A DNA stretch of 64,000 bases from Nitrosopumilus sp. b1 (GTDB lineage: Archaea; Thermoproteota; Nitrososphaeria; Nitrososphaerales; Nitrosopumilaceae). The notes beneath the pieces were generated by a model, which saw only the letters and a program-made list of their open reading frames with translations, was not told where the DNA came from and did not search any database. The position numbers and the translations under genes were made by a program. Below, piece by piece: positions 2,701 through 50,730 of the stretch (the first letter of the stretch is position 1; every line of letters begins with the position of its first letter). The stretch covers positions 62,001 to 126,000 of the forward strand of contig NZ_MU078719.1 of assembly GCF_014078545.1 (NCBI RefSeq), in the 5' to 3' direction.

Positions 2701-2720
2701 GGTTCGTTCACTTTGGACAG
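2701..2720 (+). promoter_or_regulatory. Motility-type dyad upstream of the coiled-coil gene (weak variant)
   Basis: GGTTCG-TTCACTTT-GGACAG matches the archaellin/chemotaxis operator with mismatches in the left half. The next start codon (ATG 2757, a mini-ORF) lies exactly 36 nt after it, the same spacing as in the cheB and cheY promoters. Confidence 0.4.
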
Positions 2721-2756
2721 ACATTAGATTTTCTATCTTTTTTAAGCCAAGAAATA

Positions 2757-2816
2757 ATGGCAAAAAATCATTATTTCAAGGAGCGATATTATGTTAGCGG
2801 GTACTTATTCACTTAG
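2757..2816 (+). CDS. Leaderless mini-ORF (19 aa) overlapping the coiled-coil gene
   Basis: The ATG at 2757 is where transcription should start relative to the upstream dyad. The ORF of 19 codons ends TAG at 2814-2816, past the ATG (2791) of the next gene in another frame, and it contains that gene's AAGGAG ribosome binding site (2778-2783). It may be a leader peptide whose translation feeds initiation at 2791. Its coding status is inferred from position only. Confidence 0.3.
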   Translation: MAKNHYFKERYYVSGYLFT

Positions 2817-3366
2817 AAATTTAATCCAAAACGAAGAATTTCTATTAGAACTTACTCGTACTCTTCGTAAAGAAATCACTGAATTAGAAAAAGAAAGAGA
2901 AGATGTAGAAACTGAACAAAAAGAAGCTCGAAAACAGGGCCTATTTGTAGAAAAAATGACTAATTATATGAGTGATGAACTTGAAAGACTTGAATCTTCT
3001 TCTAATGATGGCAAATCAGAAAATCAAACGATTTCGACAAATTTGAATAAACTATCAGAGACAGAAAAAAAATTAAAAATTCTTAAAACAAGATTAGAAG
3101 AATTCGTTAACACTGAAGATCAAAACCCCTTATCTAATTCATCTTTTTCAAATATACTAAAACAATATGAGGGATTTCTTCTTGAACTAACTAATTCATT
3201 AAACGAAAAGATCGTTAATCTTGAAAAAATAATCAATCGTCTTAAGGCAGAAAAAAGAGAATCACAACAGCAAAAAATATTGCTCAAAGAAATGGTTGAG
3301 TTGTTTAATGAGGAGATAATTGATCTTGAAGCAACCCTTGAGCAATTAAGGTCACAAAATGCATAA
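2791..3366 (+). CDS. Coiled-coil protein, 191 aa, unknown function
   Basis: Almost entirely helical and highly charged, with two related halves: NEEFLLELTRTLRKEITELEKE near the N-terminus and YEGFLLELTNSLNEKIVNLEKI near residue 125. It therefore looks like a duplicated coiled-coil hairpin. No membrane segment or signal peptide. Start supported by AAGGAG 7 nt before the ATG. The upstream region resembles the motility promoters, so a role in motility or cell structure is possible but unproven. Confidence 0.65.
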   Translation: MLAGTYSLRNLIQNEEFLLELTRTLRKEITELEKEREDVETEQKEARKQGLFVEKMTNYMSDELERLESSSNDGKSENQTISTNLNKLSETEKKLKILKTRLEEFVNTEDQNPLSNSSFSNILKQYEGFLLELTNSLNEKIVNLEKIINRLKAEKRESQQQKILLKEMVELFNEEIIDLEATLEQLRSQNA

Positions 3367-26492: not shown

Positions 26493-26556
26493 CTGACTAT
26501 GTGATTTTTTGATTTTTAATTAATTTGTATTTTTATTATTAGAAAAATCATGTCAA

Positions 26557-26576
26557 TGTCCGATCATCTCGAACAC
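26557..26576 (+). promoter_or_regulatory. Motility dyad, archaellin 1 promoter
   Basis: TGTCCG-ATCATCTC-GAACAC, 6 nt, GGATAT (26583-26588), 25 nt, ATG. Identical in archaellins 2 and 4. Confidence 0.75.
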
Positions 26577-26742
26577 ACTCTAGGATATACCCTGACACCA
26601 TTAATACATTTCAATGAACCTTATTAGAAAAGGACACGGACATACCCACAGAGGAGTCATTGGTGTAGAGTCTGCAATAGTTATGATTGCATTTGTGATT
26701 GTAGCAGCAGCTTTGGCCTTTGTAGTTCTCAACATGGGTTTC
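26557..26742 (+). repeat. Archaellin cassette repeat, copy 1 (promoter + N-terminus)
   Basis: 186 bp from the operator to codon 43. It differs from copy 2 (27412-27597) at only three positions, while the rest of the genes is diverged. Confidence 0.85.
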
Positions 26743-27351: not shown

Positions 27352-27411
27352 TATTTATTCTAAATTCTAAAAAATTCTTTTCACAACTATTGTAACAATA
27401 GAAAACACAAA

Positions 27412-27431
27412 TGTCCGATCATCTCGAACAC
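27412..27431 (+). promoter_or_regulatory. Motility dyad, archaellin 2 promoter
   Basis: TGTCCG-ATCATCTC-GAACAC, 6 nt, GGATAT, 25 nt, ATG at 27469. Confidence 0.75.
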
Positions 27432-27597
27432 ACTCTAGGATATACCCTGATACCATCAATACATTTCAATGAACCTTATTAGAAAAGGACACGGACATAC
27501 CCACAGAGGAGTCATTGGTGTAGAGTCTGCAATAGTTATGATTGCATTTGTAATTGTAGCAGCAGCTTTGGCCTTTGTAGTTCTCAACATGGGTTTC
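27412..27597 (+). repeat. Archaellin cassette repeat, copy 2
   Basis: Differs from copy 4 (29862-30047) at a single position; identity with copy 4 continues about 35 bp further into the gene. Confidence 0.85.
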
Positions 27598-29847: not shown

Positions 29848-29861
29848 GTTCAAATTTTTCA

Positions 29862-29881
29862 TGTCCGATCATCTCGAACAC
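29862..29881 (+). promoter_or_regulatory. Motility dyad, archaellin 4 promoter
   Basis: TGTCCG-ATCATCTC-GAACAC, 6 nt, GGATAT, 25 nt, ATG at 29919. Drives archaellin 4 and probably the downstream motor genes. Confidence 0.75.
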
Positions 29882-30047
29882 ACTCTAGGATATACCCTGA
29901 TACCATCAATACATTTCAATGAACCTTATTAGAAAAGGACACGGACATACCCACAGAGGAGTCATTGGTGTAGAGTCTGCAATAGTTATGATTGCATTTG
30001 TAATTGTCGCAGCAGCTTTGGCCTTTGTAGTTCTCAACATGGGTTTC
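29862..30047 (+). repeat. Archaellin cassette repeat, copy 4
   Basis: One mismatch to copy 2 over 186 bp. Confidence 0.85.
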
Positions 30048-35193: not shown

Positions 35194-35302
35194 TTGATAT
35201 CATTATACCTTGAATTAACAAATCAAATCACATCGCCTGTCCGATTCGTACAAGCTTAGAATGACACAACCCTAAAGATTCGTTCAAAAAAGCCAAACAG
35301 TA

Positions 35303-35333: not shown

Positions 35334-35396
35334 GTGATAGTAATGGATCTAGATTGTATAATTTGTAATTTAAAGAATGGATGTGACGATACATGA
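35334..35396 (+). CDS. Leaderless mini-ORF (20 aa, CxxC) overlapping arlH
   Basis: Begins GTG at the expected transcription start (internal ATG at 35343) and ends in TGA sharing bases with the arlH ATG (ATGA). The product contains DCIICNLKNGCDD, three Cys including a CxxC. It may be a leader peptide coupling translation to arlH. Coding is not proven. Confidence 0.35.
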   Translation: MIVMDLDCIICNLKNGCDDT

Positions 35397-43866: not shown

Positions 43867-43886
43867 TGTATGATCACGGCGAACAT
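43867..43886 (+). promoter_or_regulatory. Motility dyad, cheB operon promoter
   Basis: TGTATG-ATCACGGC-GAACAT, 6 nt, CAATAT; the next start codon (mini-ORF ATG 43923) is 36 nt after the dyad, while cheB itself is about 85 nt further. Confidence 0.7.
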
Positions 43887-43922
43887 ACTTGACAATATAT
43901 CAAAATATTCAAAAGATAATTG

Positions 43923-44012
43923 ATGTTAGGCGTTCACGTAGAACTGCATACTAGATTCTATCTATTGAACAAATCCTATGGATTACCAACTTGGGGGATA
44001 ATGATATCATGA
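43923..44012 (+). CDS. Leaderless mini-ORF (29 aa) overlapping cheB
   Basis: ATG at the predicted transcription start. 29 codons, TGA at 44010-44012 overlapping the ATGATG of cheB. No similarity recognised; the product has aromatic residues (FYLLNKSYGLPTWG). Position and overlap suggest a leader peptide or small coupling protein. Confidence 0.4.
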   Translation: MLGVHVELHTRFYLLNKSYGLPTWGIMIS

Positions 44013-45073
44013 TGACAAAGTCTGTTGAAAACCAGATCAACGTATGGGTTGTCAATGATTCACGATACATGACGCAACTTCTTATTGATTTAATATCTCA
44101 TGAAAAAATTAAAGTTACAAATACTTCCAAAGATGGCGCAGAAGCACTACGAAGACTTGATTCATCCAAACCAGATGTAATCTTATTAGATTTGGAAATG
44201 CCAAAAATGGATGGTCTTACCTTCATCGAAGAAGTTGTTAAGCAAAACAAATTGGTTCCAATAATCATTGTTAGCAGTTTTTCACAGGATGGAGCAAAGG
44301 TAGTTTTAGATGCACTTGAAAACGGGGCACTGGATTTTGTTCCCATTCCACAAACCCCATCACTAAACATGAATGAGCTAAAATCTTCTTTGATCTCTAA
44401 GATAGAGATTGCTTCAAAGTCTGATCCAATTCAATTAATCTCTCAAAATATTACTAAACTCAAACCAAAACAAAAAGCAATTATCACTGCAGACGCTGCT
44501 GAAAGGGTTATAGTAATTGGCTCTTCTACGGGAGGTCCAAAAGTAGTCCAATCAATCATCAGTGCACTGCCTGAGGATATCAATGCAGGAATTCTTGTTG
44601 TTCAACACATGCCCAAGGGATTCACTACTCAATTTGCAAAGCGACTGGATGATTGCTCCTCTCTATCTGTATATGAAGCAAAAGATGATGACTTGATTAG
44701 AAATGGAGTAGTTTTGGTTGCACCTGGCGACTATCACATGATTGTTGAACCAAGCAGGAGAGTAAAGCTCATCACGGGACCAAAGAGGTTTGGCGTTCGA
44801 CCTTCGGTGAATATGACTATGGTCTCAGCATCTGAAGTATTTGGTACAAACACCCTTGGAGTCTTACTGACAGGAATGGGACACGATGGAGGTTTTGGGA
44901 TGAAGGCGATAAAGAAACGTGGGGGAAACACTATCGCACAAAATAGTACTTCTGCTGTAGTCTATGGAATGCCCAAAGCAGCAGCTGATCTTAATGCAGT
45001 TGATCAATCACTCTCTACTGAAAAAATACCTAACGCAATTTGTCAAGGAGTGGAAAAACTTGTCAGAAAATAA
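44009..45073 (+). CDS. cheB: Chemotaxis protein-glutamate methylesterase CheB
   Basis: About 354 residues: receiver domain (to about 120) and methylesterase domain with the catalytic Ser in GSSTGGP, His in VQHMP and Asp in GMGHDGG. Removes methyl groups from MCP glutamates. The receiver keeps the phospho-acceptor DLEMPKMDG, but the acidic pair reads VVNDS and the conserved Lys is replaced (DFVPIP), so control may differ. ATG at 44009 (or 44012) is preferred over the upstream TTG 43991; a G-rich SD-like stretch precedes it. Confidence 0.92.
   Translation: MMTKSVENQINVWVVNDSRYMTQLLIDLISHEKIKVTNTSKDGAEALRRLDSSKPDVILLDLEMPKMDGLTFIEEVVKQNKLVPIIIVSSFSQDGAKVVLDALENGALDFVPIPQTPSLNMNELKSSLISKIEIASKSDPIQLISQNITKLKPKQKAIITADAAERVIVIGSSTGGPKVVQSIISALPEDINAGILVVQHMPKGFTTQFAKRLDDCSSLSVYEAKDDDLIRNGVVLVAPGDYHMIVEPSRRVKLITGPKRFGVRPSVNMTMVSASEVFGTNTLGVLLTGMGHDGGFGMKAIKKRGGNTIAQNSTSAVVYGMPKAAADLNAVDQSLSTEKIPNAICQGVEKLVRK
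45045..45050 (+). promoter_or_regulatory. Ribosome binding site of cheA
   Basis: AAGGAG, 9 nt before the TTG at 45060. Decides the cheA start inside the end of cheB. Confidence 0.7.
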
Positions 45074-48206: not shown

Positions 48207-48226
48207 TGTATGTTCGCTCTGGACAT
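48207..48226 (+). promoter_or_regulatory. Motility dyad, cheY promoter
   Basis: TGTATG-TTCGCTCT-GGACAT, 6 nt, GGATAT (48233-48238). The next ATG (48263) is 36 nt after the dyad and belongs to a mini-ORF. Confidence 0.7.
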
Positions 48227-48262
48227 ACTCAGGGATATTACTTTAATTCAGGAACAAAAGTA

Positions 48263-48286
48263 ATGCGAGGATTGTACCATGAGTAG
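48263..48286 (+). CDS. Leaderless 7-codon mini-ORF overlapping cheY
   Basis: MRGLYHE then TAG. The start sits at the predicted transcription start, and the stop lies inside cheY (ATG 48279). Same arrangement as at cheB, but very short. Confidence 0.3.
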   Translation: MRGLYHE

Positions 48287-48659
48287 CCGTGCTCCTAAGT
48301 TTCTCATAGTTGATGACGCATCATTTATGCGAACATTACTCAAAGATATTGTAAAAAAGAACGGTTTGGCAGGGGAGATCTTAGAAGCAGGTGATGGAGT
48401 TGAAGGTGTCAAAGCATACCAACAACACAAACCTGATCTTGTTACAATGGATGTAAACATGCCAAGAGCAGACGGCATTCAAGCTTTGCGTGCAATAATG
48501 AAGATAAATCCAGCAGCAAAAATAGTCATGGTGACCTCTGTTGAACAAAAAGACATTGTCCAGGATGCTATGCGTCTTGGGGCAAGGGATTATGTTGTAA
48601 AACCATTTGATCGTTCTGCAGTACCATTGGTTCTAAACAAAGTTCTAAGACAGAGATAA
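48279..48659 (+). CDS. cheY: Chemotaxis response regulator CheY
   Basis: 126-residue receiver: acidic pair VDDASFM, phospho-Asp in VTMDVNMPRADG, Thr/Ser in MVTS, Lys in VVKPF. Complete active site. It carries the signal from CheA to the archaellum motor. The archaeal adaptor CheF is not seen in the window. Confidence 0.94.
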   Translation: MSSRAPKFLIVDDASFMRTLLKDIVKKNGLAGEILEAGDGVEGVKAYQQHKPDLVTMDVNMPRADGIQALRAIMKINPAAKIVMVTSVEQKDIVQDAMRLGARDYVVKPFDRSAVPLVLNKVLRQR

Positions 48660-48767: not shown

Positions 48768-48893
48768 ATGATGGAGGGGTACTCTATTTATCGAGAAGGC
48801 AGTATGGAATTGACACATTATTGTGTCTTAGAATTTCTAATCACTGTAAAACTTTCTTCCAGCGTGCACTGGAGGAAAGTTTTTGGCCAGTAA
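48768..48893 (+). CDS. Leaderless upstream ORF (41 aa) overlapping the YVTN propeller gene
   Basis: ATG (also ATG at 48771) about 30 nt after a TATA-like ATATTTTATA (48731-48740). 41 codons, TAA at 48891-48893, past the TTG of the next gene in another frame. Ribosomes translating it would melt the hairpin that hides the next gene's SD. Coding not proven. The 223-bp gap also has small stems GCCC/GGGC (48747-48759) and GACACA/TGTGTC (48812-48827). Confidence 0.4.
   Translation: MMEGYSIYREGSMELTHYCVLEFLITVKLSSSVHWRKVFGQ
48848..48883 (+). promoter_or_regulatory. Long hairpin sequestering the SD of the YVTN propeller gene
   Basis: 15-bp stem: 48848-48862 pairs with 48869-48883 with a single G-T pair, loop CGTGCA. 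The SD GGAGG (48871-48875) is fully inside the stem, and the TTG start (48883) is at its foot. A likely translational switch. Confidence 0.65.
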
Positions 48894-50730
48894 TACTAGT
48901 GGCTTTTCTGAAAGAACTGTAATTCTTTTAGTTATCGCTGGAATCACTGCAACAATTTCTGGTTCTTACTTTGTATTCATGGATGCATCTGGTGAGAATG
49001 CTGGAGTAAATGTTGGTGAAGGACCGCGTGGTCTTGGAATCAACCATTACACAAATACAGTTTATGTTGCAAATTATGTTTCAGATACAATTTCAGTAAT
49101 TGATGGGCAAACAAACACTGTTCAAGATACAGTTGAATTAGATGGAGGACTACTTACAGGAGGAGCCGCAAGAGTAGCGGTAAACCCATACAACAATCTA
49201 GTCTATGTAACACAAAGATTTACCGATTCTGTATCAGTAATTGATGGCCTAACAAACAATGTTGTGGCAACCATTCCAGTACAAAGTGGCCCGTGGGCAA
49301 TTACGATTAATCCTAACACAAACTTTGTTTACACAACAAACCTCTTCTCAAACACTGTCTCGGTAATTGATGCAAGTACAAATCAAGTTGTAAAAACAAT
49401 TCCAGTTGGTAGTGGTTCATGGGGAATTACAGTCAATACTAATACCAACATTGTATATGTTGCAAACAGTTTGTCCAATACTATGACAGTCATTGATGGA
49501 AATACAAATACAAAAATTCAAGAAATAACGGTTAACACGGGACCATGGGGAGTTGATGTAAACTCATTTACAAACAAAGTTTACGTTACCGGATGGGATT
49601 CCGATAAAGTTACCATAATCGATGGAAACCTCAATAAAATTGAGAATTCTATTGTAGTTGGCTCAGGCATATGGGGAATTGCTGTAAATCCACTGACAGA
49701 TTCCATATTTGTTGCAAATGAGAATACTGGCACAATTTCAGTCATTGATGGTCAAACAAATAAGATATCCAATGTAATTCAGACAGATATTGCTCCTAGA
49801 GGAATTGCCGTAAACCCATTTACAAATCAGGTCTACATGACTAATCTCTTTTCAAATTCAATATCGATGGTAGAAGGACCTTCAACCTCAATTGATGTTG
49901 ATGCCTTGCTTCGAATCTTAAACCAAATACAATCAAACCATAATCTTGATTCAGATATACTGTATCAGATTCTTGAAAATACTGCCTTACATTATGACAC
50001 AGATGACCAAACTCTGGTATCAATAGTACGGGGAGTAACAAATGGATTTGGTAACATTGACTCTCAGACGTTATCACGTATCATTGAAAAACGTGATTTT
50101 GGTATTGAAATTGATGCAGAGGCATTTGAGGAAATCTTTGATAATCTTGATTCTCAAAATGTCATCAATACTGAAAAAATTGACGCAATATTACAAAATC
50201 TATCTAATAATGAAAACATCGACTCTGAGGCAATCTTTTCTTCATTAGAGGAGATCCTACTTAGCTATGAAAAAATTGATCCTGTTACACTTGGAGTGAT
50301 CTTGGAAAAAGTTGACATTAACAATCAAATCAAACCTGATACAATAAAAAATATTCTAGATAATCTTGAGCTGAATCAAAGCGTTGATTCCTTGGTGTTG
50401 GCGGATGTACTAAACGGCTTGATCTATAATGATGAGATGTTCAATGGTGCAGAACTAGACATTGATGCAGTGGCTATAGCGCTATTCAATGAGTTTGAAG
50501 AAAATGATTCAGGAGGACAGCTCAACCCTGATGAGGTGCCGCTCTGGCCAAAGATAATTGCCGTTCACTATTCAGGTGGAGACATTGCAGAGTCTGATCT
50601 AAAAGATGTCTCAATTGATTGCAGCCTTGATGCATTTAAGAAGAATTTAGACTTTAACAACATGGATAACCTCTTTAATCTCTGGGCGTCTTCACTGCCA
50701 CTGTGTGCCATGGGGTATCCTGGCTCCTAA
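48883..50730 (+). CDS. Surface YVTN beta-propeller protein, 615 aa
   Basis: N-terminal membrane helix (about 10-28), then seven YVTN-type blades (about 40-335) with the repeat NPxTNxVYVTNxxSNTVSVIDGxTN, and a helical C-terminal half (about 340-560) rich in DSxxLxxILExL units. Probably an outward-facing, membrane-anchored binding protein. TTG start behind an SD hidden in a hairpin. It follows cheY but shows no motility dyad. Confidence 0.8.
   Translation: MASNTSGFSERTVILLVIAGITATISGSYFVFMDASGENAGVNVGEGPRGLGINHYTNTVYVANYVSDTISVIDGQTNTVQDTVELDGGLLTGGAARVAVNPYNNLVYVTQRFTDSVSVIDGLTNNVVATIPVQSGPWAITINPNTNFVYTTNLFSNTVSVIDASTNQVVKTIPVGSGSWGITVNTNTNIVYVANSLSNTMTVIDGNTNTKIQEITVNTGPWGVDVNSFTNKVYVTGWDSDKVTIIDGNLNKIENSIVVGSGIWGIAVNPLTDSIFVANENTGTISVIDGQTNKISNVIQTDIAPRGIAVNPFTNQVYMTNLFSNSISMVEGPSTSIDVDALLRILNQIQSNHNLDSDILYQILENTALHYDTDDQTLVSIVRGVTNGFGNIDSQTLSRIIEKRDFGIEIDAEAFEEIFDNLDSQNVINTEKIDAILQNLSNNENIDSEAIFSSLEEILLSYEKIDPVTLGVILEKVDINNQIKPDTIKNILDNLELNQSVDSLVLADVLNGLIYNDEMFNGAELDIDAVAIALFNEFEENDSGGQLNPDEVPLWPKIIAVHYSGGDIAESDLKDVSIDCSLDAFKKNLDFNNMDNLFNLWASSLPLCAMGYPGS

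Follow-up and report, generated by a model that had tools for sequence, protein, structure and literature searches.

Leaderless mini-ORFs as probable ribosome carriers at motility promoters of Nitrosopumilaceae

The window analysed here, a stretch of 64,000 nucleotides (nt) from Nitrosopumilus sp. b1 (contig NZ_MU078719.1, positions 62,001 to 126,000), holds archaellin genes, arlH/flaH with its operon, receptors, cheW, cheB, cheA, cheC, cheR and cheY; the names archaellin, arlH, cheA and cheY were assigned partly by sequence and position. The leader between the promoter and the start of cheB is occupied by a short open reading frame (ORF), which opens where the transcript is expected to begin and closes across the gene start, and this raises the question of what role such a mini-ORF plays for the gene behind it. 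An earlier note on this DNA had proposed leaderless initiation on the mini-ORF followed by a hand-over of ribosomes to the main gene, and had claimed the same design at four further places. Comparison with relatives confirmed that the mini-ORFs are real and that their layout is conserved over the genera of the family with these promoters. The mini-ORF is probably a leaderless first ORF that carries ribosomes to cheB, cheY, arlH, cheW and the gene starting at position 2791 (gene 2791).

Motility promoters of the Nitrosopumilaceae type comprise a dyad, a TATA-like element and then a start codon about 34 nt past the right arm of the dyad, with spacings (written as +34 and so on) counted from the 3′ end of that arm. 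This +34 codon is the gene's own start for archaellins and receptors, and it is the start of a mini-ORF for cheB, cheY, arlH/flaH, two cheW paralogues and gene 2791. In agreement with the earlier note, four archaellin genes (26614, 27469, 28332 and 29919) and three receptor genes (39368, 40586 and 41741) of the window have their own start about 34-37 nt past a dyad-like element and no mini-ORF. When 43 cluster representatives were aligned on the mini-ORF start, the dyad was located at about −55 to −35, followed by a stretch of A/T only from −27 to −25, which is the TATA register before leaderless starts in a model trained on genes of the genomes G223 and G177. We infer that transcription from the dyad promoters starts at the start codon or within a few bases of it.

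Relatives within the family, represented by sample stretches of their genomes, were sorted into genera labelled g1 (the own genus of the window, including genome G232), g2, g11, g15, g16 and g17; Nitrosotenuis and Nitrosarchaeum are among the named records with similar loci, and the set for cheB conservation comprised 34 stretches from 34 genomes. In 23 of 23 cheB promoters an ATG is present at +34 to +39, and 18 of 19 cheY promoters have one at +33 to +35, two misplaced anchors being allowed for. Before arlH, GTG or TTG is found at +33 to +35 in 12/12 leaders of g1, g2 and g17, each with the frame open to arlH. A scan for dyad and TATA-like element that was blind to mini-ORFs gave two promoters absent from the list of the earlier note, located before two cheW paralogues of g17, and in all 15 of these sequences a mini-ORF opens with a start codon at +34 or +35. 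The cheW mini-ORFs comprise 7-19 codons; their ends range from 10 nt upstream of the cheW start to 4 nt into it and mostly take the form TGATG, TAATG or ATGA. One paralogue has two adjacent ATGs, so that its gene start is uncertain by 3 nt. For gene 2791, GTG takes the place of the mini-ORF ATG in G232, G003 has a GTG ORF of about 26 codons that stops immediately upstream of the gene, and in g17 the gene's own start is located at about +37.

The reading frame and the end position of the mini-ORFs depart clearly from what the controls gave. The mini-ORF ends at most 15 nt from the gene start in 19/23 cheB leaders and in 18/18 cheY leaders, with 5.6 and 7.7 expected from dinucleotide-shuffled leaders. 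Among 75 pooled promoters, the mini-ORF frame reaches the gene start in 68, compared with 9 and 14 for the two alternative frames. After similar leaders had been merged into 45 clusters, which are not fully independent phylogenetically and include three promoters of the 48883 type described below, the mini-ORF frame came to 15 nt or less from the gene start in 42/45 against 12/90 for the other frames (p ~2e-20), and for clustered leaders of at least 40 nt in 37/39 against 7/78 (p 6e-21). The 15-nt window was fixed after a first inspection, but the margin is wide. The end distances pile up at −8/−7, −4, −1 and +1, and the distances between stop and start match the range of termination-reinitiation coupling in Haloferax (overlap to about +13 nt; PMC10666635).

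As judged by this comparison, the peptide of the mini-ORF is not conserved while its start and its linkage to the gene are. The peptides, of 7-31 codons, are unlike in sequence between genera, and six close cheB pairs, some of which share branches, show 3 synonymous and 24 amino-acid-changing differences, about as the sites would give. The expectation that start, length and overlap are conserved while codons drift was borne out for start, end position and drift but not for length, which varies because it follows the length of the leader. A leader-peptide attenuator does not fit, as the peptides differ between genera and drift neutrally, without a conserved or residue-rich peptide. No alternative RNA structures were indicated for the window leaders of cheB, cheY, arlH and gene 2791, which are no more strongly folded than shuffled sequences; 48768-48910 is the sole exception.

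Within the window (Table 1), the cheB mini-ORF with its ATG at 43923, 29 codons and TGA over the cheB start was found exactly as described. ORFs are also present at 2757, 35334, 48263 and 48768, although the one at 35334 opens with GTG rather than ATG. The frames before cheB, arlH, cheY and gene 48883 end across the start of the main gene, the one at 2757 does not, and a start codon at the expected 5′ end was seen at four loci but not at 48768, which lacks a start at +34 from a dyad. The main genes had been described as led by Shine-Dalgarno (SD) sequences, which applies well to genes 2791 (AGGAG) and 48883 (GGAGG); cheY has GAGG, whereas cheB and arlH have 4-nt matches only.

In the proposed mechanism, transcription would begin at or near the start codon fixed by the dyad promoter and, where the gene does not begin at that codon, the codon would open a short ORF through the leader. 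Ribosomes initiating in leaderless fashion at the 5′ end would translate the leader as far as the gene start, terminate there and reinitiate on the main gene, aided by an SD sequence where one exists. The mini-ORF would thereby act as a stand-in first cistron, the only conserved properties being its start, its open frame and its end at the gene start. Leaderless initiation with hand-over of ribosomes appears the best reading; the translational control that the earlier note attached to it, if taken as regulated control, found no support, and plain ribosome delivery suffices.

Several observations weigh against ribosome hand-over. The ORF at 2757 ends 26 nt inside gene 2791, cheY of G003 has no start codon at the expected place, and the mini-ORF ends 30 nt early before cheB of G218 and 43 nt early before cheB of G223, G216 and G224. 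In the latter three genomes the first ORF stops at TGATG, where a second ORF opens and continues as far as TAATG at cheB; the leaders of G220 and G229 are 2 and 11 nt shorter than this relay type, and there the first ORF runs the whole way. Short leaders with no clear mini-ORF were found before arlH of g15/g11 and before gene 2791 of G001 and G002, and another dyad gene of G223 (L157, G223:C1 near 97239, minus strand) has a short leader with a TTG about 20 nt past the expected transcript start, where no start codon stands. Independent placement of transcription starts by a generic promoter model failed, the model picking the mini-ORF start in 8/45 cases with 5.5 expected.

The 5′ codon could instead capture ribosomes and lower the output of the regulator, in which case an end at the gene start would limit the damage or set a low dose. 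The arlH mini-ORFs, which start with GTG or TTG throughout, would suit such an attenuating upstream ORF, leaderless GUG messages being weak in Haloferax (PMC4983044). A repressive upstream ORF needs no coupling-competent ends, yet these are seen across the 45 clusters, and archaellin and receptor genes use the same fixed start codon directly; attenuation is therefore regarded as unlikely. Translation of the leader might also shield the message from decay or transcription termination, with hand-over being secondary. Coverage of the whole leader at any length and an open frame without peptide conservation fit such protection, but the clustering of ends at 8/7, 4 and 1 nt overlap is unexplained by shielding alone, which makes this account quite improbable. 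Functional small proteins at the head of motility operons, to which some within-genus similarity might point (for example among the g17 arlH mini-ORFs), have very little probability in view of the differing lengths and sequences between genera and the ratio of 3 to 24 in the close cheB pairs. Chance, meaning that open frames were picked out by eye from short AT-rich leaders, would explain the shortest leaders taken alone (the 16-nt window leader of cheY, null 1.0) and fits the near-chance rate of such ORFs in sampled leaders elsewhere, but is hardly credible, since both the frame and the shuffle control, run over many leaders, and the blind test on cheW contradict it.

The occurrence of mini-ORFs outside the motility genes was analysed in G223 and G177, 400 kb of each, relying on simple gene calling and a promoter model that was weak. 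SD-led leaders carried such ORFs about as often as shuffled ones (11 against 8.2 and 13 against 11.2), an ATG at the predicted start was not clearly enriched (2 against 2.5 and 6 against 3.8), and promoter-scored ATGs were no better than control triplets. The mini-ORF as a general leader feature was not supported by these samples. Because the sampled leaders elsewhere are without clear excess, the design looks regulon-specific and, in the genomes sampled, confined to the motility regulon. Start position, open frame, end position, absent peptide conservation and this limitation to the regulon all emerged from comparison of the sampled genomes.

Most cheB and cheY genes of Nitrososphaeraceae- and Nitrosocaldaceae-like genomes are located directly behind another gene, and the same holds for cheB in genera g2 and g16. 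This arrangement suggests that the mini-ORF replaces an upstream cistron that was lost after operons split. A single rule for the whole Nitrosopumilaceae regulon is a tentative extension: messages from dyad promoters might all begin with a start codon, a disposable ORF substituting for the lost upstream cistron where the gene begins later. Motility protein output would then hinge on the leaderless mode of initiation, and whatever alters this mode could switch it as one block.

The closest known design is the leaderless 'coupled' small ORF of mycobacteria, in which linkage is conserved and the peptide divergent (Shell et al. 2015, PMC4633059). The likeness consists in a linkage, and here a predicted leaderless start, that are kept while the peptide is not. 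The mycobacterial type is bacterial, genome-wide and supported by ribosome profiling, whereas the present one is archaeal and, in the sample, confined to one dyad-controlled motility regulon, with a start fixed to a regulator-like dyad and wider ends (−26 to +12). By its layout, it is an archaeal, regulon-linked variant of that design. In archaea, translational coupling by overlap through termination-reinitiation is established (Huber et al. 2019, PMC6728339) and has been shown experimentally in Haloferax volcanii (PMC6728339; PMC10666635), where reinitiation is possible at distances such as −8/−7, −4, −1 and +1 but lost at gaps of about 20 nt (PMC10666635). The stop/start distances are the same in the Haloferax pairs (PMC6728339; PMC10666635), but those pairs consist of two genes, while in the present layout a disposable ORF at the head of the message takes the upstream place. 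Differential RNA sequencing of Haloferax (PMC4983044) and ribosome profiling of Methanosarcina (PMC11456600) have also revealed short ORFs in front of archaeal genes; the accessible portions of these two papers describe no conserved layout, regulon link or end coupling for ORFs in 5′ untranslated regions. A literature search of open-access papers returned no report of the present layout in Nitrosopumilaceae.

The results provide strong comparative evidence in archaea for a 5′ mini-ORF that would be selected for frame and end alone, as a ribosome carrier. They also allow the coupling of leaderless initiation to reinitiation to be tested in a major environmental archaeal group, for which no transcription-start or ribosome data were found in the literature searched. 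The +34 rule is also of practical use as a marker: it predicts where motility operons have their 5′ ends, and gene starts could be corrected with it.

Table 1. Positions of mini-ORFs, promoter elements and genes in the window, and of relay mini-ORFs in relatives
Feature	Position	Strand	Remarks
cheB mini-ORF	43923..44012	+	ATG, 29 codons; TGA 44010-44012 overlaps cheB ATG 44009 by 4 nt (ATGA within ATGATGA)
arlH/flaH mini-ORF	35334..35396	+	GTG, 20 codons; TGA overlaps ATG 35393 by 4 nt (ATGA)
cheY mini-ORF	48263..48286	+	ATG, 7 codons; 8-nt overlap with cheY ATG 48279
gene 2791 mini-ORF	2757..2816	+	ATG, 19 codons; TAG 2814-2816, 26 nt inside gene
48883 beta-propeller gene mini-ORF	48768..48893	+	ATG, 41 codons; 11-nt overlap with TTG 48883; different promoter layout
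cheB promoter dyad TGTATGATCACGGCGAACATAC	43867..43888	+	same spacing to ATG kept in G232 and genus g17
cheB TATA-like element ATATATC	43895..43901	+	22-28 nt upstream of mini-ORF start
arlH/flaH promoter dyad-like element TTCGTTC...GCCAAACA	35279..35299	+	
cheY promoter dyad TGTATGTTCGCTCTGGACATAC	48207..48228	+	
dyad-like element before gene 2791, GTTCGTTC...GGACAGAC	2702..2722	+	
cheB	44009..45073	+	ORF and orthologues
cheY	48279..48659	+	ORF
15-bp hairpin inside 48768 mini-ORF	48848..48883	+	pairs SD (GGAGG) of beta-propeller gene 48883, followed by T's; fold z −5.5
two mini-ORFs in relay before cheB	L125 10145-10310; L128 7539-7704; L130 8236-8401		

The 48768 case should be kept apart from the mini-ORFs behind dyad promoters. 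According to the predicted fold, translation through the hairpin would open the SD sequence of gene 48883, a classical form of coupling; the hairpin and the T's may be a terminator instead.

A loose genome-wide scan for dyads gave mostly noise. The dyad, of the type TATGTTC N5 GAACATA though less perfect at certain genes, resembles the operator of a motility regulator common to all these promoters. The protein of gene 2791 (2791-3366; 191 amino acids, without a Pfam match), kept behind a dyad promoter in g1, g2 and g17, is a candidate unknown motility protein. Three archaellin promoters (26552-26613, 27407-27468 and 29857-29918) are near-identical over 62 nt, each having a dyad, a TATA-like element and the gene's ATG about 35 nt past the dyad, and several genomes of g15/g11 type carry a gene of 121-122 amino acids with its own start at dyad +32 (L137 2797−, L140 15418+, L141 10197+, L142 1987−, L143 2584−).
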